From a virus, in the IMG/VR virus record IMGVR_UViG_3300031676_000013, positions 1-27,102 of that record: a stretch of DNA of 27,102 nucleotides; one strand, written 5' to 3'. Under the pieces are notes generated by a model. It worked only from the letters and a program-made list of their open reading frames with translations, was not told the DNA's origin and did no database searches. The translations under genes and the position numbers were made by a program. Of the stretch, positions 5,112-20,436 are shown in pieces. The stretch's first letter is position 1; each line of letters opens with the position of its first letter.

Positions 5112-5115
5112 CTCC
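5112..5115 (-). promoter_or_regulatory. Ribosome binding site that fixes the GTG start at 5105
   Basis: On the minus strand the sequence reads GGAG, then six bases, then GTG AAG ATT. This Shine-Dalgarno core would overlap an alternative TTG start at 5117, so GTG is the better start for the sugar dehydrogenase. Confidence 0.7.
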
Positions 5116-5131
5116 AATCATTATATGCGTA

Positions 5132-5153
5132 CATAAATATAGTAGTATTTATG
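5132..5153. promoter_or_regulatory. Divergent pair of T4-type late promoter boxes forming an inverted repeat
   Basis: CATAAATA stands on the plus strand at 5132-5139 and again on the minus strand at 5153-5146, separated by TAGTAG. Both match the NATAAATA form of the T4-family late promoter, which is read by host RNA polymerase carrying a gp55-like sigma factor. Each box points towards a real gene: plus to ATG 5167 (28 bases away), minus to GTG 5105 (41 bases away). Inferred transcription starts would lie only a few bases apart, so each polymerase would cover the other's box. The 8-bp arms are perfectly complementary. Confidence 0.65.
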
Positions 5154-5166
5154 GAAAGTATACCTT

Positions 5167-6450
5167 ATGAAGTTAATTAAAGACTCTATCATCTTTAACG
5201 AATTTATTCAACAGCCAAAAACTACGCTGTCGATTGAAAAGTTAAAAGATCAATTAGTACTAAGTCAAGAAGGTTTTGATGATGTGTCTATTGTACATGC
5301 GTTAATCAGTTATCCCAAATGGCAGAAAGATGTTAATCTTTTTCAGTTTGTTAAACATCGAGCTCAGTCGCAATTAAGAAAAGATCCAAAATGTTTTTTC
5401 TTTTTTGATGCTAGTACCGAAGGCTTTAGCACAATACACGATGCCCCGTTCTTTGATGTACTATATTATAGCTGTAAACAAGCAAGAATAGATCCTGAAA
5501 AGATTATTTTCTTTAGTTCAAACATGTACGACAACGATAACATCATACGTTATAATATGGAACACAAGATTGAACACTCAATTAAAGTTGTTACATTTAA
5601 TAATTTTGAAAGTATGATATTTGGAATAGCAGGTGCTACGAAGCCTGGTGATGCTATTGGACAACAAATTGAAAAGAAACCTGTTGAAGTTATTTTGCAA
5701 GAACGACTAGAACATGAAATAGCACAAACAAAAAAACGTTACACAGGTAAATCATTTTTAAGCCTAAGTCGTGTTAACAGACCGCATCGGACGTTAAGTG
5801 CATTTGAAATTTTTCATAGTAACTTATACGATCACGGATTAGTAAGTCATAACAGATTTGATAAAAAAACTATCAAGCATATGGAAAGTTATCAGTTACC
5901 GGTAGGTTCACCCATTAGTCGATCTGATTTAAAAACTTGGAACAAAACTATTCTCCCCCTTACAGTTGATACAGATGATTTTGTAACTAATCATGCTATG
6001 AGTCTAAACAGCTACTTGCATCAGCAAACATTATTTCAAGTTGTAAACGAAACATTTGCAGAAAACTGGAACGGTACTAGTTTGTTCTGGAGCGAAAAAA
6101 CATTTAGAAGCATATACCATTTACAACCATTTGTTATATTTGGTCAGCATCAGTGTAATCAAAAATTACAAGACTACGGCTATAAACTATATGATGGAAT
6201 ATTTGATTATAGCTTTGATGATGAAAGAGATACATACAAGCGTTGGGTTAAACTTAAAGCACAAATAGTTAAACAAGTAAACCACTTACAACAGTTAGAT
6301 CCTAAAAAAGCAATCAAGTGGAAGTTTAGATTTGCAGATATATCTGTACACAACCTTAAAACTATGATACAAGAAAAGCATACTAAAAACGTTATGTTTG
6401 ATTTGGTTAAATATTTAAAAGAGAAAAAGAATGAAAAAACTAATACATAA
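5167..6450 (+). CDS. Possible glycosyltransferase-like phage protein, unknown specificity
   Basis: This 427-residue protein is not assigned with confidence. Two blocks recall a group of phage proteins thought to be transferase-like. FLSLSRVNRPHRTLSAFEIF (about 198-217) is followed by a long insert, then LFWSEKTFRSIYHLQPFVIF and LQDYGYKLYDGIFDYSFDDE (about 312-361). The second region resembles the 'EKT..PI...QPFV.....L..LG..TF' pattern seen in fucosyltransferase-like and related phage sequences. A lysine-rich tail ends the protein. No membrane segment or signal peptide is visible. The start is ATG 5167, with GGAAAG at 5153-5158; the earlier ATG at 5151 reaches a stop after nine codons. It overlaps the next gene by 20 bases on the same strand. 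It is one of only two plus-strand genes in the window. Confidence 0.6.
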   Translation: MKLIKDSIIFNEFIQQPKTTLSIEKLKDQLVLSQEGFDDVSIVHALISYPKWQKDVNLFQFVKHRAQSQLRKDPKCFFFFDASTEGFSTIHDAPFFDVLYYSCKQARIDPEKIIFFSSNMYDNDNIIRYNMEHKIEHSIKVVTFNNFESMIFGIAGATKPGDAIGQQIEKKPVEVILQERLEHEIAQTKKRYTGKSFLSLSRVNRPHRTLSAFEIFHSNLYDHGLVSHNRFDKKTIKHMESYQLPVGSPISRSDLKTWNKTILPLTVDTDDFVTNHAMSLNSYLHQQTLFQVVNETFAENWNGTSLFWSEKTFRSIYHLQPFVIFGQHQCNQKLQDYGYKLYDGIFDYSFDDERDTYKRWVKLKAQIVKQVNHLQQLDPKKAIKWKFRFADISVHNLKTMIQEKHTKNVMFDLVKYLKEKKNEKTNT

Positions 6451-7297
6451 TCATCCTAAAAGGATTTTTACATTTGGCTGTAGCTTTACTGGGTATCTAT
6501 GGGGTACATGGGCAAACATACTAGGTGCTGAGTTCCCTGATGCTGAGTTTAGAAACTTTGGCCGTAGTGGAGCAGGTAATCAGTATATTCATAATATGAT
6601 TATGCAGACTGATAATGTTTATAACTTTGATCACAACGATTTAGTTATTGTGCAATGGACTAATGTATGTAGAGAAGATAGATATCTGCCAGAGAAAGAC
6701 GGGTGGCTAGTTCCAGGTAACATATATTCACAGAGTGAGTATCCTCAAGACTTTATTCAAAACTTTTTTAGTGAGTACGGTGCATACGTTAGAGACTTTG
6801 CACTAATTAAAAGTGCTCATCAGTTACTTAAACATCGTACACAACATCACATGATACAAATGTTAGATTTTGAATTTCCTAATCAATGGAATCTTGCAAG
6901 AAATGTAGAATTAAAACTAAAAACTCTTATTGAGTTATACAACGAAAGTATAGATCCAATACTTCCTAGCATTTATCAAACACTATGGGCTAACAATCTA
7001 GAAGCTAAGTTTGTAAAAGATAGAAAAATTGTTGATAAAAGATTCCAAGACGGGCATCCAACACCAATTGAACATTACGATTATCTAAAGCAAATATTTA
7101 AACATGAGTGGAAAGATGAAACTGACAAAATAGTTGGGGAAGCTCAAACTAAATGGGTTAAGTTAATGAAGTCTGCTGTAAACAGTCAAACTGATGGCTT
7201 TAGTCTTTATGAAATGAAAAAGCGTTGGTTGGATATGCTAACGTATGAAACTGTTATGCGACAAAGCGACCAAATTAATCCGTTAATACATCACTAA
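6431..7297 (+). CDS. SGNH hydrolase-like protein, phage type
   Basis: This 288-residue protein has IFTFGCSFTGYLWG near the N-terminus (Ser18, with Cys in place of the Asp of GDS), FGRSGAGNQYI (Asn50, block III) and FQDGHPTPIEHYDYL (Asp207, His209) near residue 207. The order Ser, GXN, D-H fits the SGNH superfamily. The shortened D-X-H-P form differs from the DXXH of the 3025-3936 protein, so the two are distant relatives rather than recent copies. Its ATG lies inside the last codons of the upstream gene, with GAGAAA before it, consistent with coupling. Its stop lies inside the oppositely oriented radical SAM gene. Esterase or acyltransferase activity on a glycan is a family-based guess. Confidence 0.72.
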   Translation: MKKLIHNHPKRIFTFGCSFTGYLWGTWANILGAEFPDAEFRNFGRSGAGNQYIHNMIMQTDNVYNFDHNDLVIVQWTNVCREDRYLPEKDGWLVPGNIYSQSEYPQDFIQNFFSEYGAYVRDFALIKSAHQLLKHRTQHHMIQMLDFEFPNQWNLARNVELKLKTLIELYNESIDPILPSIYQTLWANNLEAKFVKDRKIVDKRFQDGHPTPIEHYDYLKQIFKHEWKDETDKIVGEAQTKWVKLMKSAVNSQTDGFSLYEMKKRWLDMLTYETVMRQSDQINPLIHH

Positions 7298-8468
7298 GTT
7301 CTGGAAACGTTTCGTCAAACGATCGATTTCGTATTTTATCAAAGTACATATTCTTAGACTTAAACAAGTCACTTGCACTTTGATCAAATGTTGACTTATG
7401 CAAATAATCAATAACACCTTGTACATGTCTTTTATGCTCAGTATGTGTTATTGTGTTTATATACGCTTGTAGCTTGTCTATAGCTGTTTGTCGTTGATTG
7501 TCTGTTAATACATTAAAGCTATAATAATTAGGTTCAACTATATTATAAAGCGTACTGTTGTTTACATCAAAGCCTTTGTTTGTCATATATTCTAAAAAGT
7601 CTACAAGTGTTAATACATTAAATGCACTTACTACACAATTAAAACTAATAATTACATGTGGGCTTTCTTCTTTAATAATTTTTAAGTTTTGTTCAATTGT
7701 AGGCCAGTCAGTGCCTTCTCTAATGTATTCGCCTCTATTTCCATAGCCGTCAATACTTGCACGTACTTCAACATGCTTAAAATTATTCCAATACTCTGTA
7801 ATGCTTTTCTTTTTAAAGAATAAGTTACTTAAATTACTATTGTATTGTAGTATAGCATCAGTCTTTTTATTTTCAATTAAGTAATCTAAAATATCATAAT
7901 GCTTATCTGTAATTAGAGGCTCGCCTCCTGCAAAATAATAATCTTGTATATCTTTAAGATAAGGTTTGAATTGATTAAATAAATCTTCGTTACTGTCTCC
8001 GCCTGCAAAAATATATACAGGTTTCTTTTCGCCGTTCTTATTATCTTCTAATGCCCAACTTGAACTATATGTGCTACTACACGTTCTACATTTAAAATTA
8101 CAAATATTACTCCAACGCACATCAAAGTATAACAACTTCATTAAGTCCAACGAACCGTCAATTTTGGTTTCGTCTTTTATATTAATATGCTTTATGAAGC
8201 GATTGTTTTGTGCAATCCTATTACTTTCTAAACCTGCTTCTTCATGCTTCCAACATTGTGTACACGTACTAGGCTTTTCGTTATTTAATAATGCTAGTCG
8301 TAACTTTTTATATTCTTCACTATTCCAAATTTCTTGAATAGTGTTGTTACGAGTATTTCCAAGAGGTTGACGCCAATCTCCAATGCAACAAGGGAGTACA
8401 TTACCGTCTGGATTTGCGTAGAAATGGATCCACGGAAGAATACAAAAAGTGCTACTTTCCGCAGTCAT
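7275..8468 (-). CDS. Radical SAM protein with N-terminal twitch/SPASM-like domain (second copy)
   Basis: In this 397-residue protein the cysteine-rich auxiliary region comes first. FCILPWIHFYANPDGNVLPCC (Cys9, 27, 28), LGNTRNNTIQEIWNSEEYKKL and CTQCWKHE (Cys69, 72) match the GXX...IWNS pattern usually found after the radical SAM barrel. The core follows with SNICNFKCRTCSS (Cys123, 127, 130) and FAGGEPLITD (GGEP at 181-184). This inverted order is known in phage proteins annotated as twitch-domain radical SAM. It ends ETFPELSDVLTD, closely like the end of the neighbouring 457-aa protein. The start overlaps the upstream gene by 17 bases. The 3' end overlaps the plus-strand SGNH gene by 23 bases. 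Substrate unknown. Confidence 0.88.
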   Translation of the reverse strand: MTAESSTFCILPWIHFYANPDGNVLPCCIGDWRQPLGNTRNNTIQEIWNSEEYKKLRLALLNNEKPSTCTQCWKHEEAGLESNRIAQNNRFIKHINIKDETKIDGSLDLMKLLYFDVRWSNICNFKCRTCSSTYSSSWALEDNKNGEKKPVYIFAGGDSNEDLFNQFKPYLKDIQDYYFAGGEPLITDKHYDILDYLIENKKTDAILQYNSNLSNLFFKKKSITEYWNNFKHVEVRASIDGYGNRGEYIREGTDWPTIEQNLKIIKEESPHVIISFNCVVSAFNVLTLVDFLEYMTNKGFDVNNSTLYNIVEPNYYSFNVLTDNQRQTAIDKLQAYINTITHTEHKRHVQGVIDYLHKSTFDQSASDLFKSKNMYFDKIRNRSFDETFPELSDVLTD

Positions 8469-9825
8469 TGTAAAACTCCTCTAGTTCAGGAAATGTTTCT
8501 ACTAAGCTACAATCACGCCTGCGATCAAATTCTTTAAACCAGTTATGGAAATCTTTACGTGCTTGTTCTAACTTACGTGGCTCGTAATGTGTTGTACGCA
8601 TGTACTCAACAACACGTTTAAACTTTTCTACTTCTAGTTCTGTAAATTTAGATCTGCTTTGGTCGTCTTGATTATCACGCATGTACTGTAAATGTTTTTC
8701 CATGTATGGTATAAATTCGTCCTTGGGCAATATGTTCATATCATATATACTAGGCTCTTTTAGGTGAGGTGTATCAAACCTAATACGTTGCCATTGTGTA
8801 GCATTATCATCGCTATTATATTTTTCACGCCATTCTAATATTTTTTCTAGTAACTGATTAAAACTAGTTACTCCAAATATATTAAATGTAATCATAAATG
8901 TCACAGGCCAATTTGTTTCAGTTAGATAGTAATCTAAGTTTTGTTCCCATAACTTAATGTCTAACCCTGTACGTGCATATTCAGCTCTTGGTCCCCAAGT
9001 ATCAATACTAGTGTATAGTTTAAAACTTTTAATTTTGCCTTCTGCTTTAAGACGCTTCACAGTTGTAGTTAATCTTTCAACTAGCTTAGGCTTAACGCCC
9101 ATGTTACTGTTAACTTCAATTTGGATATGAGGTTTAGGATCGTTGTCTAATTTTTCTAACAAGTTCCAAAAACTTTTATGCATTAATGGCTCACCGCCTG
9201 TGATACGTAAAATATTTAATGTCTTACTAAGCTCTGGCCACCATTCCCAGAACGCTTTTACATATGGATTAGTATCCTCGTCCTTCTGTATTTCAAACCA
9301 ATCAATGTCTTGCCTGTGTGTGCTTGACATGTTGTATGGTCCGTGCTGTTTTATTTCGTTATAGTACCTACTAGAAGCTTTAGGGTGACAATATCCGCAC
9401 TTAAAATTACACTCGTTACTAAAACTAATTTCAATGTACTCAGGATTTACGTTAAAATCCGCCCCTTTTTGTTTTATTTCCGCTACTCTTTCCTCAGTAT
9501 AGATACTAGTAGTTTTAATATGTCTATCACTAACAAAATCTTTACCCATTGCTTCAATTTTCCAACAGTAACTACAACCGTCTGGTTTATCTCCGCACAT
9601 CATTGCACTACGTTCAGCTTTCTTTTGCTTTGTGTTGTGTAATGCACTAGGATTATCTTTTAATTCTTCTAAAGGAATTTTATGAGGAGCAGGATGATAA
9701 CAACTATGTGTTTCACCTGTTGCAAGATAGATAGTTGTGTGATGCCACTTTGCTAAACAAAATGTTGGCGAAGTTTCAGCCTCAACAATAGGCATTACTG
9801 TTTTAATTTTTTCTAGTTCGCTCAT
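8452..9825 (-). CDS. Radical SAM protein with N-terminal twitch/SPASM-like domain (first copy)
   Basis: This 457-residue protein shares its layout with the downstream 397-aa protein. An N-terminal cysteine region comes first (FCLAKWHHT, Cys23; HSCYHPAPH, Cys42; MMCGDKPDGCSYCWK, Cys77, 84, 87). The radical SAM cluster SNECNFKCGYCHP (Cys139, 143, 146) and LRITGGEPLMHKSFW (GGEP at 210-213) follow, with a C-terminal ETFPELEEFYNDC. A TGETHSCYHP stretch resembles the 'DGNVLPCC' position of the other copy. The start is ATG 9825, overlapping the stop of the 55-aa gene as ATGA. Two such enzymes side by side suggest a heteromeric pair or two steps on related substrates. The reaction is not deducible. 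Confidence 0.88.
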   Translation of the reverse strand: MSELEKIKTVMPIVEAETSPTFCLAKWHHTTIYLATGETHSCYHPAPHKIPLEELKDNPSALHNTKQKKAERSAMMCGDKPDGCSYCWKIEAMGKDFVSDRHIKTTSIYTEERVAEIKQKGADFNVNPEYIEISFSNECNFKCGYCHPKASSRYYNEIKQHGPYNMSSTHRQDIDWFEIQKDEDTNPYVKAFWEWWPELSKTLNILRITGGEPLMHKSFWNLLEKLDNDPKPHIQIEVNSNMGVKPKLVERLTTTVKRLKAEGKIKSFKLYTSIDTWGPRAEYARTGLDIKLWEQNLDYYLTETNWPVTFMITFNIFGVTSFNQLLEKILEWREKYNSDDNATQWQRIRFDTPHLKEPSIYDMNILPKDEFIPYMEKHLQYMRDNQDDQSRSKFTELEVEKFKRVVEYMRTTHYEPRKLEQARKDFHNWFKEFDRRRDCSLVETFPELEEFYNDCGK

Positions 9826-9989
9826 TTAATATACTTGTCCACTAATTTCTTGCCAATGTACAATACTGCTATCACTGCTACTAAGATTCCTGCCTCTAAG
9901 TATAAGTTTCCTGTACTACTGTCTACTTCAATGCTGTCTGTGCTTATTGCTATACGACAATTTTCGCAAGTTTCTTCTAATTTACTCAT
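9822..9989 (-). CDS. Small single-pass membrane protein (55 aa)
   Basis: The frame from ATG 9989 to TGA 9824-9822 encodes 55 residues. The N-terminal part is polar with a CENC pair (Cys8, Cys11). A hydrophobic stretch LEAGILVAVIAVLYIG (about residues 31-46) can span a membrane, and a basic tail KKLVDKYIK would stay cytoplasmic. It fills an otherwise empty gap of about 160 bases, and both ends overlap neighbours as ATGA, which is strong positional support for a real gene. It lies between a glycosyltransferase-like gene and a radical SAM gene. It could be a membrane anchor or scaffold for those enzymes; a holin role is unlikely given the single segment and location. No family is recognised. Confidence 0.75.
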   Translation of the reverse strand: MSKLEETCENCRIAISTDSIEVDSSTGNLYLEAGILVAVIAVLYIGKKLVDKYIK

Positions 9990-10870
9990 TTGCGTAATAC
10001 CCTGTCTGTGTTAACATACACTTCTTTAAAAAAATGACTTTGTTCTTCGTCAAATGGGTTAGTTGAGATTGGTAAGCCTTGTTCGCTGTTAAGTGTCTTA
10101 CCATAGTGCTGAGCAAGTTCCATTGGATCCTTGTCTTTTGTAGAAAGCCATAACTCGTTTAAGTATTTAAAGTCTCTTGTTTGTACGTGATCCCAATCAG
10201 TACACGTTGTCATGTAGCACCCTTGTCTGGCTCCTGCTACACTCCATATACCGTTGTCTACATCAGCACCAACTTGCATCCATATTAACAAACGTTGATA
10301 GTTTTGCCACCAAGTTTCACTTGCAACGTCTTTAACTTTGGCTCCTCTATTCAAACTCATCTTTACACCTTCACGGAACCCTGCTCTCCATGCTTGATGT
10401 GGAGTAGCACTAATAATACTAGTACTGTAATTGTCATTTAGTTGATAATAATTATCAAAGTAACAAAATTCAATACTAGTGTCTGCGCCACCATCTGTGT
10501 TCTCATGTGTTTTCATATTTTTTACAAAATCTTTAGTCCACATTTTTAAACTGCCGTTGCCGTACTTTAATCCGTTAACATTAATGTTACCGCACCAACT
10601 AAATTGGTAGTCATCATCAACTCCTAGTGCATCTAAGTCTAATACTACATTTAAAAATGCTGGATCAATAACTGTATCACCATCAACTGTAACAAAGTGT
10701 TTGGTTTCACTAAGTTCTGCACACGCTTTGTGTGCGGCATCACTGCCATCTACACCATGTACACGTTTGGCCCAGGGCACTTTATTGATTAAATCAACAT
10801 AGTTCTTTTCGCAATTTGGTTCATCGTACGATAAGAAGATAATGTCTTGTTCAGCTATATTAATTTTCAT
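9986..10870 (-). CDS. GT-A-like glycosyltransferase, second of two paralogues
   Basis: This 294-residue protein begins DIIFLSYDEPNCEKNYVDL and has HFVTVDGDTVIDPAFL at about residues 59-74, a GT-A strand with a DGD metal/nucleotide-sugar motif. Shared blocks with the 223-aa protein at 2361-3032 (YxEPN, AKRVxxVxG, VDGD, NGLKYGNGS, WRAGFREGVKMSL) show the two are paralogues, one in each operon. The extra length here is an insert between the NGLKYG block and the WRAGFRE block (ENTDGGADTSIEFCYFDNYY) plus a longer C-terminus. Its start overlaps the 196-aa gene as ATGA and its stop overlaps the 55-aa gene the same way. No export signal is seen. Donor and acceptor are unknown. Confidence 0.72.
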   Translation of the reverse strand: MKINIAEQDIIFLSYDEPNCEKNYVDLINKVPWAKRVHGVDGSDAAHKACAELSETKHFVTVDGDTVIDPAFLNVVLDLDALGVDDDYQFSWCGNINVNGLKYGNGSLKMWTKDFVKNMKTHENTDGGADTSIEFCYFDNYYQLNDNYSTSIISATPHQAWRAGFREGVKMSLNRGAKVKDVASETWWQNYQRLLIWMQVGADVDNGIWSVAGARQGCYMTTCTDWDHVQTRDFKYLNELWLSTKDKDPMELAQHYGKTLNSEQGLPISTNPFDEEQSHFFKEVYVNTDRVLRK

Positions 10871-11457
10871 TGGTGTACCTCATACATGTATCTATCAAAG
10901 TTTTTGATGGTATACACACTAACTGGTTTTGCTTCAAATTCAAATTTACTGTCAAATGGAACAATAACGTATTTGGTATCATGTAGTTCTGAGAAATTAA
11001 ATGAAATTGTTTTTAGTAATATATTTGGGTCTGACTTTTCAGTTATACTAAAATACAAAGTATTTTTAAAGCTAACCCGTTGTGCTAATATGTTTGCTTT
11101 TAGATCACCACCTATTGTAATTTTCCAACAAGTATCGTTAATGTTTTGTATAATATGTATATCAGGACTATCTTCTGAAGTCATTGGAACTTCATATATT
11201 AAGTCGTCAACAAAATAGCTGTCTATACTAGTATTAGTTCGTAGTCTAAGTTCATATGTCTTAGTTTTTTTAATGTAGTGTACATAGTAATAGCTTAATG
11301 GTTCGGCGCCTGAAAGTAACCCTGTAACTTGCGTTTCTTCTACAGGAATATAACTACCTTCTTCTGGTTTGTAGTTAGGCAAAGAAAGAACGTCACCATT
11401 TGACGGATTAAATATTACATAACGTTGGTGTATTGGTTGTGTGTAACTTAGTTTCAT
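10867..11457 (-). CDS. Unknown protein, probably beta-rich (196 aa)
   Basis: No family is recognised. The protein is rich in alternating hydrophobic residues (YVIFNPSNGDVLSL, YELRLRTNTSIDSYFVDDLI, WKITIGGDLKANIL, NTLYFSITEK, KYVIVPFDSKFEFEA), which suggests a beta-sandwich. It begins MKLSYTQPIHQRYVIFNPSNG and lacks a signal peptide, membrane segment or cysteine cluster. The gene is certain from context: its start overlaps the GT8-like gene as ATGA and its stop overlaps the DGD glycosyltransferase start. It could be a carbohydrate-binding module, an accessory subunit or the acceptor that its glycosyltransferase neighbours modify; the sequence does not decide. Confidence 0.7.
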   Translation of the reverse strand: MKLSYTQPIHQRYVIFNPSNGDVLSLPNYKPEEGSYIPVEETQVTGLLSGAEPLSYYYVHYIKKTKTYELRLRTNTSIDSYFVDDLIYEVPMTSEDSPDIHIIQNINDTCWKITIGGDLKANILAQRVSFKNTLYFSITEKSDPNILLKTISFNFSELHDTKYVIVPFDSKFEFEAKPVSVYTIKNFDRYMYEVHQ

Positions 11458-12296
11458 ATCCCAATACCCTTTTCATATTTTGCAACTTTGTCATCTGTTA
11501 AGAACTCTTTTTCAGTATAATGAAAAATGCCTTGCTGTTGATGATTGCCTATTTTTAATGCTAGGTCATCTGTTAGATAACTGCCTACTCTACTACGCCA
11601 TGTTTCGCTAGGGTTATACCAACCTTGTATCTTAGGCTTCATATGTGTAAAACTTGGAAAGGAAACTTTCTTGTTTGTTATCTTATCTTCGCAGTCTAGT
11701 ATCTTTGCTACGATTGCAGTACTAGTATCAACACTTAACCAGTTTTGGTATTGCTTAGGTGCATACTTTCCATAAAATAGTTGCCAGTTGTTCATAACTA
11801 GTTCTAACCAAGTATAAAACTCCTTTGCAAAATCACACTTTTTAAAGTAATGTAAGCCAGCATACAAGTTAGGTAAGTCATTTGCTTTAAATGTCTTACG
11901 ATAGTAAGTATCATTTACTACAGTACCTCGGTATGTGTATACTTTGCTAACATAGAACATTTCATAGTTGCCTAAAAAGTCCCACCATGTATCAATGTTT
12001 TGTAATACAAGCATATCAGTGTCCATTACGATAGTTTCATCATACGGACTTGCATGGTATAACTTCCAACGGTTGTTTACTTTCCACTCTGTATCAGTTG
12101 CATCATCGTTCCATGGTATAGGTTTGATGCAATCAAACAGGTGTAAATACCTAGATGGTACTTTATCGTCGGTTAACAAGCAGACGTTAGTGTCATTAGT
12201 AGCCCTGATGCTCATTGCCAGCACACAGGCCTGCTTTACGTAGTCGTGTGTGCTGTTTTGCGCCAGTAAAACGATGCCTTTAGAGCCATTAAGCAT
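11454..12296 (-). CDS. GT8-like glycosyltransferase, downstream copy of a tandem pair
   Basis: From ATG 12296 the protein has 280 residues. It opens GIVLLAQNSTHDYVKQACVLAMSI and has SPYDETIVMDTDMLVLQN (about 83-100), where DTD is the DXD metal/UDP-sugar site of GT-A enzymes. Position and surroundings resemble family 8 galactosyl/glucosyltransferases. Later LYAGLHYFKK fits the strand that reports the acceptor side, and GIFHYTEKEF lies near the C-terminus. The upstream 12289-13137 protein has the same plan. A TTG at 12300-12302 would add two residues; ATG is preferred and AGGG lies about ten bases upstream. It overlaps the upstream gene by eight bases. It is probably cytoplasmic; specificity unknown. 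Confidence 0.75.
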   Translation of the reverse strand: MLNGSKGIVLLAQNSTHDYVKQACVLAMSIRATNDTNVCLLTDDKVPSRYLHLFDCIKPIPWNDDATDTEWKVNNRWKLYHASPYDETIVMDTDMLVLQNIDTWWDFLGNYEMFYVSKVYTYRGTVVNDTYYRKTFKANDLPNLYAGLHYFKKCDFAKEFYTWLELVMNNWQLFYGKYAPKQYQNWLSVDTSTAIVAKILDCEDKITNKKVSFPSFTHMKPKIQGWYNPSETWRSRVGSYLTDDLALKIGNHQQQGIFHYTEKEFLTDDKVAKYEKGIGI

Positions 12297-13137
12297 TATC
12301 AATGACCCTATTCAAACTAAATTTATTCATTACATGTACACTACTACCTTTAATACGCAATGGGGTATATTCTCCAAGGTGTTGTTCTTTCTCAACTAAG
12401 AATAGAAAATTATCATCTTCTAATTTCCATAGTATATCTCTGTCTGCTGTGTAGTATTTTTTACCTGGTAACTTATTTGCAAAATCACCATCTTGGTAAC
12501 CATTCATAATATGTATAGCAATACTAAACACCCAGTCATTACGAAACGTTGGTTTGTTAATTTGAAAAATACTATTGTAGTGTTGCCAGTTTTCTTGTAT
12601 ATGTTTAGTTAGATCAAAGAACACTTTATTGTCTTTTGTTTTTCTAAAAAATACAACAGTAGCCCAATAGAAGTCTACACTAGTTTCACTAATTTTAAGG
12701 AATTCTGTATTATCTCTAAACCCTGTTAAGTCACTTGCATCTTTGTAAATTAAAAAATTACTGTCTTGCTCAAAACAATGCGTTAACACATCATTTGCAA
12801 TAATGTAATCACTGTCTAATAAGATAGTTTCATCATATGGGCTTAGTTCGTATGCTTGTGTTCGGAGGTCGTTTTTAAATTCAAGTTGTTTGTACACACC
12901 TGATCCATCAAAGTATCTCTTTTCGCTAAGAGCTCTAGCAAATGGAACTTCAATTACTTGATCAAATACAGTATCATAGTCAGTATACGTTTCTTTCATA
13001 TACTCGATACTATCTGTAACAATAGTCGTTGGAATGCCGAGATATTTAGTAATACGTTTTGCTAGATAATGAGCTTGTTTAATATAATCAACTTGGGCAT
13101 TATTCCTAGCAAAGATTAATGCGCCTTTACTCCTCAT
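12289..13137 (-). CDS. GT8-like glycosyltransferase, upstream copy of a tandem pair
   Basis: This 282-residue protein begins KGALIFARNNAQVDYIKQAHYLAKRI and carries SPYDETILLDSDYIIANDVL (about 99-118), where DSD is the DXD metal/nucleotide-sugar motif. The segment (A/S)PYDETI(V/L)(M/L)D(T/S)D is nearly identical to that of the next gene, and the N-terminal 'xARN/AQNxxxDYxKQAxxLA' block also matches, so the two are a tandem duplication that has since diverged strongly. VHVMNKF near the C-terminus fits the terminal His region of family 8 enzymes. It overlaps the 117-aa gene by 11 bases. Donor and acceptor are unknown. Confidence 0.75.
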   Translation of the reverse strand: MRSKGALIFARNNAQVDYIKQAHYLAKRITKYLGIPTTIVTDSIEYMKETYTDYDTVFDQVIEVPFARALSEKRYFDGSGVYKQLEFKNDLRTQAYELSPYDETILLDSDYIIANDVLTHCFEQDSNFLIYKDASDLTGFRDNTEFLKISETSVDFYWATVVFFRKTKDNKVFFDLTKHIQENWQHYNSIFQINKPTFRNDWVFSIAIHIMNGYQDGDFANKLPGKKYYTADRDILWKLEDDNFLFLVEKEQHLGEYTPLRIKGSSVHVMNKFSLNRVIDNA

Positions 13138-13480
13138 ATTCTACAAGTCCAGATACCTTACGCTGACTTCTAATTTTTTCGTATGCAGTTAGGTATTCGT
13201 TTGATGCTGTAAAGTAGATATCTAATACATCGCTAAGAAAGTCTTCTACGTTTTCGACCTTTACAGGTATATCATTGTCGTCAATTAACACCACAGACTC
13301 TTGACCTGTTTGTACTAACATATTACAGAAGTTCATTAGGTCTTTGCTTACGGAGAATTGTCCACCGTTATGATAATGAATTGCACTTTCGTAAAACTTC
13401 TCTTTTATTACTCTTTTTTGGTTATTAAGAGTAGTCATGTAATTAGCAAAATCTAATGCTTTTTCAAGACGTTCGTCCAT
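13127..13480 (-). CDS. Small conserved phage protein of unknown function (117 aa), first gene of the early-type operon
   Basis: This 117-residue protein has a charged helical N-terminus (ERLEKALDFANYMTTLNNQKRVIKEKFYES), a middle SVSKDLMNFCNMLVQTGQESVVLIDDNDIPVKV stretch and a helical end. It feels like a protein shared among marine T4-like phages, but I cannot name a function. There is no membrane or signal segment. It has the strongest start signals in the window: AAGGAG six bases before ATG 13480 and a sigma70-type promoter just upstream. The ribosome binding site lies in a hairpin arm (see the separate entry). As first gene of the operon it may be a regulator or chaperone for the enzymes that follow, but that is only position-based. 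Confidence 0.75.
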   Translation of the reverse strand: MDERLEKALDFANYMTTLNNQKRVIKEKFYESAIHYHNGGQFSVSKDLMNFCNMLVQTGQESVVLIDDNDIPVKVENVEDFLSDVLDIYFTASNEYLTAYEKIRSQRKVSGLVEYEE

Positions 13481-13485
13481 AAGGA

Positions 13486-13521
13486 TCTCCTTTAAGTGTA
13501 TTATACACTATTTAAAGGAGA
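13486..13521 (-). promoter_or_regulatory. Hairpin that can sequester the ribosome binding site of the 117-aa gene
   Basis: On the minus strand TCTCCTTTA pairs with TAAAGGAGA (9 bp), then a three-base bulge AAT, then AGTGTA pairs with TACACT (6 bp) around a TAA loop. The 3' arm contains the AAGGAG Shine-Dalgarno sequence (13487-13492). Neither strand has a U-run after the stem, so it is not an intrinsic terminator. A transcript starting at the embedded sigma70 promoter would lack the 5' arm and leave the site open. Transcripts reading through from the structural genes would carry both arms and hide it. Confidence 0.65.
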
Positions 13522-13528
13522 AAGTCAA
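13500..13528 (-). promoter_or_regulatory. Sigma70-type (early) promoter for the region C operon
   Basis: On the minus strand TTGACT (13528-13523) and TATAAT (13505-13500) are separated by exactly 17 bases, close to the bacterial sigma70 consensus. The promoter lies in the 51-base gap after the 13532 stop codon and points at ATG 13480. T4-like phages use host sigma70 for early genes, so the glycosyltransferase and twitch radical SAM operon may be expressed early, apart from the neighbouring virion genes. No late-type box is seen in this gap. Confidence 0.8.
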
Positions 13529-13531
13529 GTT

Positions 13532-14425
13532 TTAAGTTAGATTTGAACTGCCGTTAGTGGAGTACGTAGGGGATACCAATGAAACTGCCGCTCCAGTTGG
13601 TCTTGTTTGCGTGATTGTACTGTTAAGAACACCTTGTACGTTTTCGTCAGTATTTGGATTACCTGTGTTATCGTCATTAAACGTAACTTTGAAACGTAAA
13701 ATTGTGCTACTTACTTTTGATCCTTCGATCTTGTAGTCGTTTGCGGCATATAAGCCTGAGCCTGTTTTTTCAAAAAGTTGTTGGTAACTAGAAGTTAGGT
13801 CGTGATAACCAATTGCTGAGCCTGAACCCGAGCCTGACGCAACTGTGTTAGTATAATTCATAGTAACTGTGCCCATGTTAACTAACATAGTCATCCAGTC
13901 AATTGTTTTTGAGTCAGAGCCAACATATGTAATGTTGGAAGCAAAGCGGACTTCTCCACCTGCATTAAAAAAGTGTCTTTGATGGCCTGCATCAGTAAAT
14001 GCAATATCAATAATATGTGATAATGTTCCGTTCCAGGCGGTTGTTCTAGTACCAGCAATGGCCGCTTCTGTTGTTACTTGAGTTGCATGTGCTACAAATT
14101 TATCATTTTCAAGTGTTGTAGCAAGATTTTCAAATTGTACAATACCTTTTTTGTTAATTGTATCACTGTCAAGCACAACGTCAACGTTTTGCGTAACAAG
14201 GTTAATTTCTGATGGTACTGCACCTGTTTGGTGAATACGACCAGCACTCATATCTTGATACAACTGATTAATATCAATTGCTTGTACTGTATCAGCAACT
14301 CCAACTTGGGCACTATTTAAGTTCTGTCCGTAGCCGTCATCTCCTGACCCTACTCCCATCACCGTTGCTACTCTTGATTGTAAGTTGTTGTACCTTGCCG
14401 CTGTGATTATATCGCCGACTGCCAT
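13532..14425 (-). CDS. Virion structural protein, tail/fibre region
   Basis: This 297-residue protein begins MAVGDIITAARYNNLQSRVATVMGVGSG, a start I associate with virion structural proteins of marine T4-like phages. It is rich in Gly, Ser, Thr and Asn with few charged helices (ASGSGSGSAIGYHDLTSSYQ, TFNDDNTGNPNTDENVQGVLN, TQTRPTGAAVSLVSPTYSTN), typical of an extended beta fibre or sheath-associated protein. No enzymatic motif is visible. It is the last gene of the structural block, four bases after the 496-aa fibre gene, with AAAGG upstream of its ATG. The exact position in the particle is unknown. Confidence 0.75.
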   Translation of the reverse strand: MAVGDIITAARYNNLQSRVATVMGVGSGDDGYGQNLNSAQVGVADTVQAIDINQLYQDMSAGRIHQTGAVPSEINLVTQNVDVVLDSDTINKKGIVQFENLATTLENDKFVAHATQVTTEAAIAGTRTTAWNGTLSHIIDIAFTDAGHQRHFFNAGGEVRFASNITYVGSDSKTIDWMTMLVNMGTVTMNYTNTVASGSGSGSAIGYHDLTSSYQQLFEKTGSGLYAANDYKIEGSKVSSTILRFKVTFNDDNTGNPNTDENVQGVLNSTITQTRPTGAAVSLVSPTYSTNGSSNLT

Positions 14426-14429
14426 AATT

Positions 14430-15920
14430 TTATACCTTTAATACGGCTTCTACTAAGCCTTCTTCGTCTTCTTCTGGTTCCCATGATTCTAAGCTAATAC
14501 CTACTAAGAAATGGCCTTCTGGTCTAATCGTTTGACCAATGCCGTCCATGTCTGCATAAATTGCTTCGCCTTTATTTACAGGTCCTTTAACTCTTACTGG
14601 TACCCGTCCTTTAAGTGCAACTGCTTGACCTTCAATAGTACTGTTCATTAAGAACGCTGGTTGAGCACTAATTACACCAATTGGAATTTCTGTTGGTTCT
14701 ATTGGTCTAACTTCTGCGTCAATATCTTCGTCAAATTTAACTACTGAAACAATAGTTCCTGTTGGAAGTTCTTCTGCTGTTGTGTACTTTTCCGCTAAAT
14801 CCGCATATTCTGCTGATGTTGCTGTACCTGTAAATTTGTTTGCTACTAGGTTACCACTTGCATCTCTAACTGCTACTGTATTGTTAGTAGCCGCTGTATC
14901 TGCACTACGGTAGTTTGCACCAACTTGTAATTTCTGTGCATTTTCTGCTAACCCTTTAAAGTTAGTTGCATGGATATCTTTGAATACATTGCTTGTTGCG
15001 CCAATATCATATGTGTTATGTGATCCTGGTACAATTCCTGTATCTGTAACTGTTGCTACATGCTGTTCAACACCGCCTGAGGTATCAACTTTAAGTTTAA
15101 TTTTTGTTCCAACATCATTTTTAATAACTGCTTCATTGTCATTTTCAATAAAGATTTTTAAATCGCTGGAGTTACCAATTGAAATACCTGCATCTGCAAA
15201 ACTAACAAGTGATGTAAATGATCCTGAACCTGCTAACGCAAAATCAGTAGCAGTATATCCACCTAGTTTTAATGAGTTACTAGCTGTACCCCAAAAATAG
15301 TCTTGTGTACTTGTAACACCGCCTGCGGCATTCATAGTATTTCTTAGTGTTAGACCCTTTTTAACAACATCAAAGCCTGTAATAGCGTTTGACGGATCTG
15401 TATTATCAATAGTAAACGTTGCACCACTAATAATATAGATTGTTTCATCGTTAACAACGGCTTTGATAACTAATCTGTTTACATTAGTTGTATCTCTTAC
15501 ATTAGCTGAAACCATCTGTGTTACAGTTGTACCTGCACCTTGTGGGCCAATTAGTACATATCCTGATCCGCTGTATGCATATAGTTGTTCGTTTGTCGAA
15601 TCCCACCATAAATCGCCAGTAGCTAAACCAGCTGGTGCAGTTGCGGCAACTTCAGCGCCGCCTGTTGTTCTAAATTTGGATCCATCATAGAATTTTAGTT
15701 TATTAGCACCCGAATCGTACCAAACCTGTCCTGAAATGGCCTTCGGAGGCTGGTTAGCACCACTAAAGTTTTCTAGTAAGTGTAAAAAGTTCTCGTTTTG
15801 GATCTCACCGTAACCGGCGTAATTCTTACCTACTAATTTAATATCAGTAGTTTGATCGACGGTACCATCTTCAACAACTGTTAAAGTAGTTCCGTTATAT
15901 CTGTCAATAGTATATGCCAT
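14430..15920 (-). CDS. Tail fibre-like protein, paralogue 1 (no collar domain)
   Basis: This 496-residue protein shares an N-terminal module of about 150-190 residues with the two genes upstream: ENFLHLLENF, SGQVWYDSGANKLKFYDGS, TGDLWWDSTNEQLY and YSGSGYVLIGPQG. The middle is beta-rich with short repeats. From about residue 365 a C-terminal domain begins with FTGTATSAEYADLAEKY and continues TGTIVSVVKF, VPVRVKGPVNKGEAIYADMD and an acidic end. This resembles C-terminal domains of marine phage fibre proteins. No chaperone peptidase motif is apparent. A GATAAATA late-type box and AGAGG precede ATG 15920. The N-module presumably docks on the baseplate or on a partner fibre. Confidence 0.78.
   Translation of the reverse strand: MAYTIDRYNGTTLTVVEDGTVDQTTDIKLVGKNYAGYGEIQNENFLHLLENFSGANQPPKAISGQVWYDSGANKLKFYDGSKFRTTGGAEVAATAPAGLATGDLWWDSTNEQLYAYSGSGYVLIGPQGAGTTVTQMVSANVRDTTNVNRLVIKAVVNDETIYIISGATFTIDNTDPSNAITGFDVVKKGLTLRNTMNAAGGVTSTQDYFWGTASNSLKLGGYTATDFALAGSGSFTSLVSFADAGISIGNSSDLKIFIENDNEAVIKNDVGTKIKLKVDTSGGVEQHVATVTDTGIVPGSHNTYDIGATSNVFKDIHATNFKGLAENAQKLQVGANYRSADTAATNNTVAVRDASGNLVANKFTGTATSAEYADLAEKYTTAEELPTGTIVSVVKFDEDIDAEVRPIEPTEIPIGVISAQPAFLMNSTIEGQAVALKGRVPVRVKGPVNKGEAIYADMDGIGQTIRPEGHFLVGISLESWEPEEDEEGLVEAVLKV
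15765..15791. repeat. 27-bp direct repeat, copy 1
   Basis: This stretch is identical to 19630-19656 and encodes the LHLLENF part of the shared N-terminal module. The third paralogue (15950-17761) encodes a different version at the same place. Identity this long at synonymous sites suggests exchange between the two fibre genes or strong constraint on this segment. Confidence 0.85.
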
Positions 15921-15939
15921 TTCTTTTCCTCTATGTTAC

Positions 15940-15947
15940 TATTTATC
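15940..15947 (-). promoter_or_regulatory. Candidate T4-type late promoter box GATAAATA
   Basis: The box lies in the short gap between the 15950 stop codon and ATG 15920 of the 496-aa fibre gene, correctly oriented, with AGAGG following at 15928-15932. Such boxes occur by chance in AT-rich DNA, but the placement in one of the few gaps of the structural block favours a real site. Confidence 0.5.
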
Positions 15948-15949
15948 TT

Positions 15950-17761
15950 TTACCACAAGCCGCCGCTTGATCCAAGATCGTTATCAAATGTCCACGCACC
16001 TGCGGCTACTATAAAGCGTTTTAACCCACGTCCTACAGTAACGTTAACTACACCTGCCGCTGATGCAAACGCAACATCCTGTACCACACTCTGGTTTAAT
16101 ACACCATTAGCGTCTACAGCAATGTATGATATGTTTTTAGCCGCATCAACGTCAATACCAGTAACCGTAGCACCTGAAATAGTTGATGTTGCAACATACG
16201 CATATGTGCCTGTTTTCTTATTACTAGCAGGATATATGTCTTCAATAATTGTAGCAATATTCGTGTTAGTTAATCCTGTGACGTCTAAACTTAAAGTAAC
16301 CGGTTCTAGATTAATTTGATCGTCAACATAATACTTTGTAGCGGCATCCGTGTTAGTTGTTGGTTCCGCTAGTCCTGTAATTTTTTGGTTATTAGTAATT
16401 GTAATAGAACCAGTACTTTCTAACTGTAAAGGTGTGCTAGTTGAAATCTTCGCACCCTGAATGTTAGTTTGGTCTACATTAAGTTGATTTAGTGTACCAA
16501 TATCAGTAAGTCCAAGTGCTTGTGTTACACTTGATCCTAGTTCTGTTTTGTTTAATACATTAACACCTTCTGCTTTATACCACTTAGTTGCAACAACATC
16601 AATATTTTCACTTGATGTCCACGCTCCTGTAGCATTTTTCCAAAGCCATTCTTTATCAAGATCACTTGATTTAAGAATAACTCCACCGCTATCAACTCCG
16701 GCATTATTTAATAATGTACTATCACTAGTAATACCTAGTTCAATATTCTTATCTTCAACTCTTAAATCTTGTGTTTCAATAGCAACAGCTGGTGACGTCA
16801 AATATAAATTTCCGTCAACACGCATATCTCCACCAACATGTAGTGTATGCTGTGGTGCATCTTTAAATATACCTAAGAATGATTCTGATGTGTCAATAGT
16901 TACTGCATCAACAAAGCCTGTTGCTTTTCTAACTCTAATTTTGTAATCATGATTTGACAATTGGTTTTCGTTAACAACACTAGTTCCAACTACCTTTTGA
17001 ATATTATTTTGTGCTGTACCAATTGTAATTCCGCCGCTGTTAGCAACTGTTAGTGTTCCAATAGTAGTAGCGTTTGTATCTGCTGATAAAAACTGTGATG
17101 CACTCTTTGCAACTCCAGCCGCATCAACTAGTGCTGATGCACTATCAGCTGACCCTCTAAATACAAAGTCAGTGACAGTTGAAATAATATTAAAGCCTTT
17201 CTTAATACTAGCTAACCCTGTAATAGCATATGCCGCTGATGGCGTAAATTCGTTGTTTGAAAATATTCCAATTAGTGTTCCGGCAATTGAAAACCTTACA
17301 ACAGTTTTACTATTGTTTTGGTTATCTAAAATTGTTACAGTTTCAAAACCTGACTTGCCTTGATCACTTGTATAAACAGGGCCTGCTAGGTTAAATTGTG
17401 TTCCGTCATAAAAGTGTAATTGCTTTGTTGCATTATTAATCCAAAGATCACCTGCAACTACGCCAACACCTGGTTGTGAATTTTGTACAATAGGACCGCC
17501 ACTGGTTCTAAAGTTTGATCCGTCATAAACTTTTAATCTTGCTTCTTGTGAATCGTACCATAGCTGTCCTTTTAACGGAAGACTTGGTGCAGAAGTATTT
17601 GCAAAGTTTTCTAAAATCTTAATAAAGTTTTCGTTAATGCTTTCGCCGAATCCTGAATAGTTTTTACCAATTAATGAAATATCAGTAGTTGTAGTATCTA
17701 ATTTACCATCTACTAGATCTACAAGTAACGAGCCGTCTGTTTTATTTAATTTATAACTCAT
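15950..17761 (-). CDS. Tail fibre-like protein, paralogue 2 (no collar domain)
   Basis: This 603-residue protein carries the shared N-terminal module: SLIGKNYSGFGESINENFIK, LKGQLWYDSQEARLKVYDGS and AGDLWINNATKQLHFYDGTQ. The remainder is beta-rich and repetitive. Around residues 310-360 is HTLHVGGDMRVDGNLYLTSP, a pattern common in fibre shafts, followed by IETQDLRVEDKNIELG and TNTDAATKYYVDDQI. The last 120 residues have Thr/Val-rich strands ending FIVAAGAWTFDNDLGSSGGLW. Its ATG overlaps the stop of the collar protein gene as TAATG. Probably a fibre or baseplate-attached spike; the exact role is unknown. Confidence 0.78.
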   Translation of the reverse strand: MSYKLNKTDGSLLVDLVDGKLDTTTTDISLIGKNYSGFGESINENFIKILENFANTSAPSLPLKGQLWYDSQEARLKVYDGSNFRTSGGPIVQNSQPGVGVVAGDLWINNATKQLHFYDGTQFNLAGPVYTSDQGKSGFETVTILDNQNNSKTVVRFSIAGTLIGIFSNNEFTPSAAYAITGLASIKKGFNIISTVTDFVFRGSADSASALVDAAGVAKSASQFLSADTNATTIGTLTVANSGGITIGTAQNNIQKVVGTSVVNENQLSNHDYKIRVRKATGFVDAVTIDTSESFLGIFKDAPQHTLHVGGDMRVDGNLYLTSPAVAIETQDLRVEDKNIELGITSDSTLLNNAGVDSGGVILKSSDLDKEWLWKNATGAWTSSENIDVVATKWYKAEGVNVLNKTELGSSVTQALGLTDIGTLNQLNVDQTNIQGAKISTSTPLQLESTGSITITNNQKITGLAEPTTNTDAATKYYVDDQINLEPVTLSLDVTGLTNTNIATIIEDIYPASNKKTGTYAYVATSTISGATVTGIDVDAAKNISYIAVDANGVLNQSVVQDVAFASAAGVVNVTVGRGLKRFIVAAGAWTFDNDLGSSGGLW

Positions 17762-19791
17762 TATACTGCTCCCGTATTAGCACCAGCATATATGATAAAG
17801 TTCATCGACATATATGGGTTCATAATGTCTATTGGTTGTCCAATTGCACTATTTGTTAAGATGCCACCTGATGATGGATAAGCCTGGGCCGCTCCTGTTC
17901 CTGTTGGTGCATCATATTGTATACCTTGTGGATCGTTTGGTGTACCTGTAATATCTCTTGATATGTAGTACTGATCTCCACTTGGGCCACGTTGATCATG
18001 TTCGTGTTCTGGTAAGTTAGTAAGTCCAACGGATTGTGTTTGTTGTCCTTCAACATTACCTATTGTATCTGCCGCGGCACTTGTTACAACGTTAGCACTT
18101 TCGCCACCCATGTTATCTAGGCCTAGCATAAATCTACCACGTAAGTCTGGTAAAGCAAATTTACCTGCTGTTACAAGTGATTGTGCTTTATAGTTGTATA
18201 AGATTACATTAAACAAGTTTTGGTATTCAGCAATAGTAACTTCTCTACCATCACAAATTAACCAATCAGCTGGTAGAACGCCTGCGGCAAATGCCGTAAC
18301 CATTCCAACTGGAAGTTGCGGAATTGCTTTAAACAAGTTAGTTCTTGATATCTTATATACACCAGTATCACCAGTTACTCTGTTGAACATAATTTCATCA
18401 GTGGAGTTACTTAATGCTTGTTCTGTTTTATTTGCAATAAACGTGTTATCAATTGACGTAATAAAAGTTTTAACACTTTCGTCTTGTCCGTTAAATGTAA
18501 ACTCAGAAGCACTAACGTCACCTGTCATTCTAAATGTTGTTGCACTTGCTAACTTATCAGTAGATCCTGATCTACCACTAATTGATCCTGTAACGTTACC
18601 TGTAACATTACCTATAAAGTTTTGCGAAAATACATTTAAGAACTGTTCGTTTGCAGTACCAATATTTCGTGTTGTTGTAATGTTTGGAACAATGTTGCCT
18701 GTGGTTAATAACCCTGCAATGTTTGTGTCACTACCTACAAATAACTTCTTAGCAATACCAACACCACCTTTAATAATGGCGCTACCTGTATTAATTGTTG
18801 CAGAGTCTGTTGTACCGTTAACTAGTATTTGACTATTTGTTTGAATATTACCAATAACATCTAATGCTTCAACTGGTGCTAAATTGTTAATACCAATTTT
18901 ACTTGTTGAGTCAACACGCAATACTGTAGTAGTTGTGCCTTCATTGTTAACTCTAATATCAATGTTTGATCCACTTGTTTGGTGACCAATAATTCCTGCT
19001 TGTCCTTCAATGCCGATATTCAATGCACTATCTGCACCAACTGTAAGTCCTGAATTGTTTTTAATCTTTATTGGAACAAGACTGTTAGTTTCTTTATCAG
19101 CTCTTAAGAAGTTTGCCGCTGGAACATTTTCTGCTCCAACTACTAATGCTTCTGCTTTTTCTGCTGTGCCGCGATATTTTCCAACACCTGAACCAGTAAT
19201 ATCAAATGTACTTAAATTGTACCCTGGACTAATAGTTGTAAAACCTTGCAACGTAGTCTTTGGTGTAAATGCATCAGTGGCCATAATTGCTAAAGTTTTT
19301 GCTTTAACTTCAACAATTAGAACTGTGTATGTAATATTGTCTGTACCAATAATAGTATCAGGCTTAACTCCAGTTGAAAGACCATCACTAAATGTTGGTC
19401 CAACTAAGATCCAACCCGAACCTGTAAACAAGTATAATTGTTGGTTGTCAGTATCAACCCATAAGTCGCCAACTACTGATTGGTTTGCTTCTGGTTGTGT
19501 GGTTGCTTTTTTAAGTCCACTTGCACTAACCCAATTAGTTCCGTCATACAATTTTAGTTGATCAATGCCTGGTGTTGTATCATACCATAGCTGACCTTCT
19601 ACTGGATTTGTCGGTGCTGTGTTAAAAGCAAAGTTTTCTAGTAAGTGTAAAAAGTTTTCGGCAATAGCTGTACCGTAAGCAGTTGTATTTCTGCCTGGCA
19701 AATCTAACGATGTTTGTTGATTGACAGTATTGTCTTCTACAACAATGCTACCTTTTTGGGATAAGTCAGTATAGTTTACGGTATATGCCAT
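17761..19791 (-). CDS. Short-tail-fibre-like protein with C-terminal tail collar domain
   Basis: This 676-residue protein starts with the shared module (AIAENFLHLLENF, EGQLWYDTT, VGDLWVDTDNQQLYLFTGSG). The middle has fibre repeats such as NVTGNVTGSISGR. From about residue 490 it has LPVGMVTAFAAGVLPADWLI, CDGREV, KFALPDLRGRFMLG and LTNLPEHEHDQRG, the signature of the phage tail collar domain found at the end of T4 gp12-type fibres and many other fibre proteins. In gp12 the collar domain helps hold the trimer and metal-binding receptor tip. The HEHD motif could be metal-binding. It is the only one of the three paralogues with this tip, so it is the best candidate receptor-binding fibre. GAGG lies in the upstream stop region. 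Confidence 0.85.
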   Translation of the reverse strand: MAYTVNYTDLSQKGSIVVEDNTVNQQTSLDLPGRNTTAYGTAIAENFLHLLENFAFNTAPTNPVEGQLWYDTTPGIDQLKLYDGTNWVSASGLKKATTQPEANQSVVGDLWVDTDNQQLYLFTGSGWILVGPTFSDGLSTGVKPDTIIGTDNITYTVLIVEVKAKTLAIMATDAFTPKTTLQGFTTISPGYNLSTFDITGSGVGKYRGTAEKAEALVVGAENVPAANFLRADKETNSLVPIKIKNNSGLTVGADSALNIGIEGQAGIIGHQTSGSNIDIRVNNEGTTTTVLRVDSTSKIGINNLAPVEALDVIGNIQTNSQILVNGTTDSATINTGSAIIKGGVGIAKKLFVGSDTNIAGLLTTGNIVPNITTTRNIGTANEQFLNVFSQNFIGNVTGNVTGSISGRSGSTDKLASATTFRMTGDVSASEFTFNGQDESVKTFITSIDNTFIANKTEQALSNSTDEIMFNRVTGDTGVYKISRTNLFKAIPQLPVGMVTAFAAGVLPADWLICDGREVTIAEYQNLFNVILYNYKAQSLVTAGKFALPDLRGRFMLGLDNMGGESANVVTSAAADTIGNVEGQQTQSVGLTNLPEHEHDQRGPSGDQYYISRDITGTPNDPQGIQYDAPTGTGAAQAYPSSGGILTNSAIGQPIDIMNPYMSMNFIIYAGANTGAV
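19630..19656. repeat. 27-bp direct repeat, copy 2
   Basis: Identical to 15765-15791 and in the equivalent place of the collar protein gene, encoding the same LHLLENF segment. The two copies diverge immediately afterwards. Confidence 0.85.
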
Positions 19792-19794
19792 TTA

Positions 19795-20412
19795 TTAAAC
19801 CTCGTTAAAACCTGTTAAACTCTGTACTCTAACAGTATAATCAATTTGGATTAATCTGTTTAGTGATTTTTGTACAGGGTGGAAAATTACATGCGTTAGT
19901 AATCTGCCTGTGCCGCTACTTGCGTAACTTACAAGACCTAATTCGTCAAACACGTATAAGCTATCATTAGCTGTTGCATTGTCTAATGCATCTTGTCCAC
20001 TAGGCTCACCGTAATCAAGTAAACATGTTGCTACAATATCTGTGTAGTTTGTGCCACTTACGTGTCTAGTCTCTAATTTGTTTCTAGTAGGATCTACGTT
20101 ATTAACGTTATTATTGTCAATAACTTTAGCATATGTTTGGTTATACAAACTAGCATTAGTTCCAGTGGAGTTTGGTGACAAGTACGTAATGATGCCTGTT
20201 GGGTCAACATTTGTACCGCCGTTACCAAATGCCATTTGGTATACCATTCCTTGTCCTTGGTTAGATAGACTCTCCGCTAATGAGATACTCATGTTTTCGT
20301 AGTGAATAGCATTACGCTTGTCCACCAAGATTTCACCAGTCTCTGGATTGTGTATCTTGATGTGCCCTTGTAAAAGAACACCTTGTTTATCATTAAATTT
20401 ATCTGTCATCAT
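19795..20412 (-). CDS. Virion structural protein, baseplate/tail region (205 aa)
   Basis: This 205-residue protein begins MMTDKFNDKQGVLLQGHIKI and contains NPETGEILVDKRNAIHYENM, YQMAFGNGGTNVDPTGIITY and HVIFHPVQKSLNRLIQIDYT. It has the look of a small beta-rich virion protein found beside fibre genes in marine T4-like phages. Tandem ATGs at 20412 and 20409 both fit AGGA at 20418-20421, with spacing slightly better for the second, so the real N-terminus may be MTDKFND. An AATAAATA box is upstream. It lies between the giant protein and the collar fibre, so it may connect fibre to baseplate. Confidence 0.72.
   Translation of the reverse strand: MMTDKFNDKQGVLLQGHIKIHNPETGEILVDKRNAIHYENMSISLAESLSNQGQGMVYQMAFGNGGTNVDPTGIITYLSPNSTGTNASLYNQTYAKVIDNNNVNNVDPTRNKLETRHVSGTNYTDIVATCLLDYGEPSGQDALDNATANDSLYVFDELGLVSYASSGTGRLLTHVIFHPVQKSLNRLIQIDYTVRVQSLTGFNEV
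20405..20412 (-). other. Tandem start codons of the 205-aa gene
   Basis: The minus strand reads ATGATG here. AGGA ends five bases before the first ATG and eight bases before the second, so the start is ambiguous by one residue. Confidence 0.5.
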
Positions 20413-20428: not shown

Positions 20429-20436
20429 TATTTATT
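20429..20436 (-). promoter_or_regulatory. Candidate T4-type late promoter box AATAAATA
   Basis: The box overlaps the TAA of the giant gene (20432-20434) and points at the 205-aa gene 17-20 bases further on. The leader would be only about ten bases, including AGGAAA. Position favours function, but chance occurrence cannot be excluded. Confidence 0.5.

Follow-up and report, generated by a model that had tools for sequence, protein, structure and literature searches.

Our analysis of a viral DNA stretch of 27,102 nucleotides (IMG/VR record IMGVR_UViG_3300031676_000013, positions 1 to 27,102; hereafter the window) suggests that a promoter nested in a hairpin probably acts as a lock on the ribosome site of the gene behind it, so that only locally started RNA would be translatable and read-through from late virion genes would be silenced. 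We found the promoter together with its hairpin, selection on pairing between promoter spacer and leader, late promoters upstream, and a split in promoter class.

The 51-base gap on the minus strand between a 297-aa virion-cluster gene (last base 13532) and a 117-aa gene (ATG at 13480) contains TTGACT-N17-TATAAT and a hairpin overlapping this sigma70 promoter, both on the minus strand from 13528 down to 13486:

13523 to 13528, minus strand: -35 box (TTGACT) of the nested sigma70-type promoter, by sequence match
13513 to 13521, minus strand: 5' arm of the hairpin, within the promoter spacer and predicted to be missing from promoter-initiated RNA (fold and arm-swap tests)
13509 to 13516, minus strand: TTTAAATA, a possible weak T4-type late promoter box (NTAAATA kept in the window clade and its sister clade)
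13512 to 13510, minus strand: 3-nt bulge of the hairpin (fold)
13509 to 13504 paired with 13500 to 13495, minus strand: upper stem (fold)
13500 to 13505, minus strand: -10 box (TATAAT), in the upper stem and loop (sequence match and fold)
13503 to 13501, minus strand: loop, TAA (fold)
13486 to 13494, minus strand: 3' arm, TAAAGGAGA, holding the ribosome site AAGGAG at 13492 to 13487 (fold and accessibility computation)
13480 to 13478, minus strand: start codon ATG of the 117-aa gene

The promoter matches the consensus at 11 of 12 positions with a 17-nt spacer and is the top-ranked promoter-like site in window positions 1-20000. Promoter-like matches overall showed no excess (73 in the window versus 76 in shuffles), and the weight therefore rests on the quality and conservation of the TTGACT-N17-TATAAT site. 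The hairpin consists of 15 pairs (nine lower and six upper), its lower arms belonging to a 10-bp exact inverted repeat. Its minimum free energy over 13486-13528 was -14.9 kcal/mol versus -4.8 +/- 2.2 for shuffles (z -4.6; 0/200 as stable), and the identical hairpin was recovered in both the MFE and centroid structures of a 201-nt read-through context, though no curated RNA model in Rfam matched it at E <= 1. A first-pass annotation had placed the -10 box in the loop and upper stem, and the AAGGAG of the 117-aa gene in the 3' arm; the fold bears out both placements.

The predicted transcript start of the nested promoter lies at 13494-13493, 6-7 bases past the -10 box, which would leave some 13 bases of leader and no 5' arm. 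Folding of naked RNA at 37 °C gave the ribosome site an unpaired probability of 0.01 in read-through RNA versus 0.41 in promoter-initiated RNA, in agreement with the earlier proposal that the site is locked in the former and freer in the latter. The corresponding values in close relatives were 0.01/0.97 and 0.02/0.87. Within the window's short RNA, AAGG and CCUU can still pair in a weak helix.

Pairing between spacer and leader is under selection across relatives of the 117-aa gene. These were taken from viral contigs, where more than 500 exist, and the best were kept to give 85 distinct upstream regions. A strong sigma70 promoter (TTGACA/TTGACT) occupies the gap in 59 of the 85, nearly always with a 17-base spacer, and spacer and leader are complementary in many lineages despite wholly different sequences (CTCCTATTAGT/ACTAATAGGAG in L078, CCCCTATTCAT/ATGAATAGGGG in L093, CCTTAGACTATA/TATAGTCTAAGG in L026 and TCTCCTTTAG/CTAAAGGAGA in L142). 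Exchanging the 5' pieces between lineages, with promoter and composition preserved, cost about 5 kcal/mol on average (z -15.5, 59 regions). The relatives are metagenomic contigs, and their 81-85 lineages share ancestry; a test on 14 non-redundant regions, which removes this only in part, gave z -6.8 (0/20,000 permutations matched). Among five close relatives, 6 of 12 pairs had changed on both sides, a compensatory pattern that failed in slid registers.

Ribosome-site closure also exceeded that of swapped hybrids (z -5.5), with pairing strongest just 5' of the site, and closed-site hairpins are scattered over the tree of the 117-aa protein. Strong closure is limited to about half of the lineages, with partial closure elsewhere; some lineages (L135, L172, L125) have the promoter and no hairpin. 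The uncompensated arm changes that the first-pass annotation would have counted against its idea are not the rule in relatives, though pairing has been lost in some lineages.

The locus was compared with other promoters in four related genomes, G001 (267 kb), G010 (169 kb), G016 and G015, with genes called by a simple script. There was no excess spacer/leader pairing at 44 sigma70 promoters of these genomes, copies of this locus included (z -0.10), or at 59 late promoters (z +0.42), so such pairing is not something that their promoters share at large. Of the G001 starts that have a ribosome site, only about 2% are closed as tightly as that of the 117-aa gene, and the site of the locus is not exceptionally closed in G010 and G015. 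The exact 19-base core occurs in other contigs preceding other genes, so the core alone is not a signature; the core AAATAGTGTATAATRCACT stands before unrelated genes in L053, with TTGACA upstream, and in L031, with AAGGAG directly behind. Two further regions of G001 have related features. A run of small genes (L180:1200-5600) carries repeated sigma70 promoters of the form TTTTGGTGCTATAGT with GAGGGCA before the start, one of them overlapping a long hairpin, and a 96-aa gene (upstream region L189:6523-6810) has GATAAATA within a CTCTCC...GGGAGA hairpin over its ribosome site, a possible instance of the T4 e/soc arrangement in its classical form.

The locus belongs to a family of large marine T4-like (jumbo) phages: the contigs encode a gp23-type capsid gene, and the nearest named relatives (68-71% identity) are Sinorhizobium phage Phosso, Vibrio phage 2.275.O and the Mimasvirus group (GAP32, CBB), all of them T4-like jumbo phages. 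Among the collections searched, none contains a known cultured member of the family. Promoter classes, assigned from motif matches, divide the genes of these phages. In gaps upstream of genes in G001, the T4-type late box ATAAATA was enriched (27 versus 0.65), as was TTGACA (13 versus 2.7). Ten late-box genes of G001 include those for tail sheath, baseplate hub, tail fibre, baseplate connector, UDP-glucose dehydrogenase and a radical SAM protein, and ten sigma70 genes include those for the late sigma factor, DNA ligase, SbcD, dNMP kinase and endonucleases. In T4, sigma70 boxes denote the early or middle class, and with caution we suggest that they do so in these phages; the capsid gene of G010 has a sigma70-like match too.

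The two sides of the gap fall into different classes. In 72 of 81 lineages ATAAATA stands before one or both of the two virion genes next upstream, consistent with the earlier view of these genes as the source of late read-through, and it precedes the 117-aa gene in none of the 81, where a sigma70 site matching at 10 or more of 12 positions is found in 57. The surrounding genes and late boxes in the window are as follows:

20429 to 20435, minus strand: late promoter box ATAAATA before a 205-aa virion-cluster gene (motif)
15940 to 15946, minus strand: late promoter box ATAAATA before a 496-aa tail-fibre-like gene (motif)
13532 to 14425, minus strand: 297-aa virion-cluster gene, directly upstream, the putative source of read-through RNA
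13127 to 13480, minus strand: 117-aa gene, first of five overlapping genes reaching to 9986 (ORF)
12289 to 13137, minus strand: 282-aa second gene of the block, a putative glycosyltransferase by inspection, related in position to the next gene
11454 to 12302, minus strand: 282-aa third gene of the block, a glycogenin-like glycosyltransferase (profile match to glycogenin-1, E 8e-7)

A relative of the 496-aa gene matches tail fibre/virion families, and between the two late boxes (15946-15940 and 20435-20429) and the hairpin the window has no T-run terminator.

Late boxes also occur further along the window. At 5133-5152, where the UDP-glucose dehydrogenase gene (3933-5117, minus strand) diverges from the gene at 5167-6450 (plus strand), ATAAATA stands on both strands, 13 bases apart, likely forming a two-way late promoter. 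Another ATAAATA, at 2405-2411 on the minus strand, immediately precedes the radical SAM gene (1406-2401). Some of the modification region is therefore probably late, and the suggestion that this whole region is early does not hold, given the boxes just upstream of this gene and of UDP-glucose dehydrogenase.

Gene order around the gap is kept in the relatives examined: two virion genes, a gap of about 50 bases, the 117-aa gene, then a pair of genes for proteins of about 280 aa and one for a protein of about 190 aa, with ends mostly overlapping. In the window, five genes overlap in series from 13480 to 9986, and closing the first ribosome site could therefore silence the whole block if translation is coupled. 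We saw no mobile element or transposase gene in the block, and the flanking gene order is conserved across relatives. The second gene had no family match; the AlphaFold model of the glycogenin-like glycosyltransferase was poor (pLDDT 57), and its identification therefore rests on the sequence profile.

The 117-aa family is represented by hundreds of loci in viral contigs (window 13127-13480; relatives L001-L179), while tblastn with two queries found no homologues in the deposited phages searched and a profile search against five related jumbo phages yielded a single weak match (E 0.04). The protein matched no accepted family. Its predicted structure is confident (pLDDT 91.5), yet a viral fold search returned one unnamed relative and weak DUF4376 matches, and a PDB search nothing significant. 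The gene is also present in contigs of Neomarinimicrobiota and Gammaproteobacteria genome bins (PBPT01000016, PBPT01000082 and NZGL01000008; L224-L226), which are probably phage contigs within bacterial bins.

Together, these patterns suggest how the lock may operate. Host-type (sigma70) polymerase would initiate within the hairpin, near 13493, producing RNA without the 5' arm in which AAGGAG is reachable, so that the 117-aa gene and the overlapping glycosyltransferase genes could be translated. Polymerases arriving from the upstream virion late promoters would copy both arms, allowing the hairpin to form and close the first ribosome site of the block. Translation of the operon would thus be tied to local, mostly early-type initiation and untied from late read-through, one short DNA stretch probably deciding which transcripts are translatable. 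The existence of both RNAs, blocked 30S binding and a net early-on/late-off effect are what we infer from the folds and motifs. With late boxes upstream, and sigma70 sites at the 117-aa gene as at the late sigma factor and ligase genes, early local translation with silencing of late read-through fits the data.

Whether the operon is also shut off late depends on a second motif in the hairpin. The sigma70 promoter and TTTAAATA, acting as a late promoter, could both sit inside the hairpin, the operon being translated early and late and the hairpin silencing only the long virion transcripts, with no late shut-off; we consider this unlikely, though it is the strongest of the alternatives. Window-clade members carry TTTAAATA in the hairpin, or TCTAAATA (L015, L022), and in several of them the -35 box has decayed to TTGCTT/TTGCAT; CTAAATA, GTAAATA and TTAAATA are, like ATAAATA, enriched before genes of these phages; and a sister clade (L025, L059-L072, L080, L084) has TAAATA motifs in the gap without sigma70 boxes. 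Most of the family, however, lacks TAAATA and has a near-perfect sigma70 site instead, and TTTAAATA departs from ATAAATA, the late consensus of these phages, TTAAATA showing the lowest enrichment of the variants in G001 (6 versus 1.2). RNA from TTTAAATA, if this is a weak late promoter, would lack the 5' arm too. In the sister clade the nested promoter may be late, which would give either this dual arrangement or a T4-style one; for L059-L066 the lock is no more than suggestive, since there the site is closed by shuffled spacers as well. The first-pass expectation of an operon on early and off late is supported in part: the sigma70 class, shared with DNA-metabolism and late-sigma genes, fits early expression, while TTTAAATA and the sister-clade TAAATA motifs leave the late shut-off unsecured.

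It is more doubtful still that the hairpin chiefly ends or protects the upstream virion mRNA, as an intrinsic terminator or 3'-end barrier, and overlaps the ribosome site through compactness of the gap. A stem followed by a T run occurs in a few relatives (L115, L119, L130, L163), and in the 117-aa gene the bases that separate ribosome site and start are rich in T (0.58 versus 0.28), but T content is unrelated to hairpin strength, and at least five T in the next eight bases are found in only 4 of 40 strong hairpins and are absent in the window, which rules out an intrinsic terminator as a general reading. A repressor-bound DNA palindrome over the promoter is highly improbable: many lineages do have a dyad with the promoter at its centre, and mismatches show only slight enrichment in G-U (14 versus 9.8 expected), a mark of RNA structure, but the arms are bulged and extend into the ribosome site, and their sequences change completely between lineages while complementarity persists, unlike those of a DNA operator.

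The promoter-nested lock on the ribosome site thus remains our preferred reading. Since the local promoter appears to be of early class and the incoming transcription of late class, a reversal of the T4 logic is its most economical account. More tentatively, we propose that such a reversed switch may be kept by compensatory change throughout this large T4-like jumbo family, and that one clade may have exchanged its early-class nested promoter for a late one; the clades with TTTAAATA or TAAATA and the partial closure in about half of the lineages count against the early-on/late-off account. If it is true, the T4 trick of marking translatable transcripts by their start point also runs in the opposite temporal direction, and the reversed arrangement is old and widespread in marine jumbo phages. 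The design would be compact and dependent on pairing rather than sequence, with the 5' arm in the promoter spacer, the ribosome site in the 3' arm, and read-through ignored. It offers a clear test of how phages separate an early operon inside a late gene cluster without a terminator, and draws attention to a very common phage protein family, unmatched in the deposited phage genomes searched.

Counterparts of this arrangement are known from mobile elements, bacteria and phages. In IS10/Tn10, transcripts that come in from outside fold so that the transposase ribosome site is hidden, while those from the internal promoter do not; the same relation of outside and internal RNA is predicted here, though the IS10/Tn10 arms are the transposon end and this locus is a fixed operon junction with gene order conserved on both sides. 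In Bacillus subtilis sigG, a hairpin has been proposed to keep read-through RNA of the upstream operon from being translated, and transcripts that start at the sigG promoter itself are unable to form it (PMC5942855). Our locus would resemble sigG in both respects, but sigG is a single bacterial sporulation locus with 20 or more pairs, unlike this phage early/late junction.

Closest are the T4 genes e, soc, 49 and I-TevI, where hairpins close the ribosome site in early or middle read-through RNA and late promoters lift the block, and segB and Aeh1 mobE, whose late promoters likewise lie within the ribosome-site hairpin (PMC3014915, PMC2988022); the second of these reviews notes that every T4 gene controlled in this way is a late gene carried on early or middle transcripts (PMC2988022). 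As in e, soc and I-TevI, a stable hairpin pairs the ribosome site in the computed read-through RNA, and a promoter within it, here in another T4-like phage, would yield RNA without the 5' arm from the predicted start. We found no description of the reversed version, with an early-type nested promoter and late read-through, in the open papers searched. The locus thus appears to work like the T4 group and sigG, and to depart from the T4 group in two defining features: the nested promoter, late in T4 (TATAAATA), is here sigma70-type, the window clade adding no more than the weak late-like TTTAAATA; and the incoming transcription, early or middle in T4, comes here from late virion genes. On this evidence, a sigma70 promoter nested in a ribosome-site hairpin that acts against late read-through would be new relative to the e/soc/I-TevI kind.
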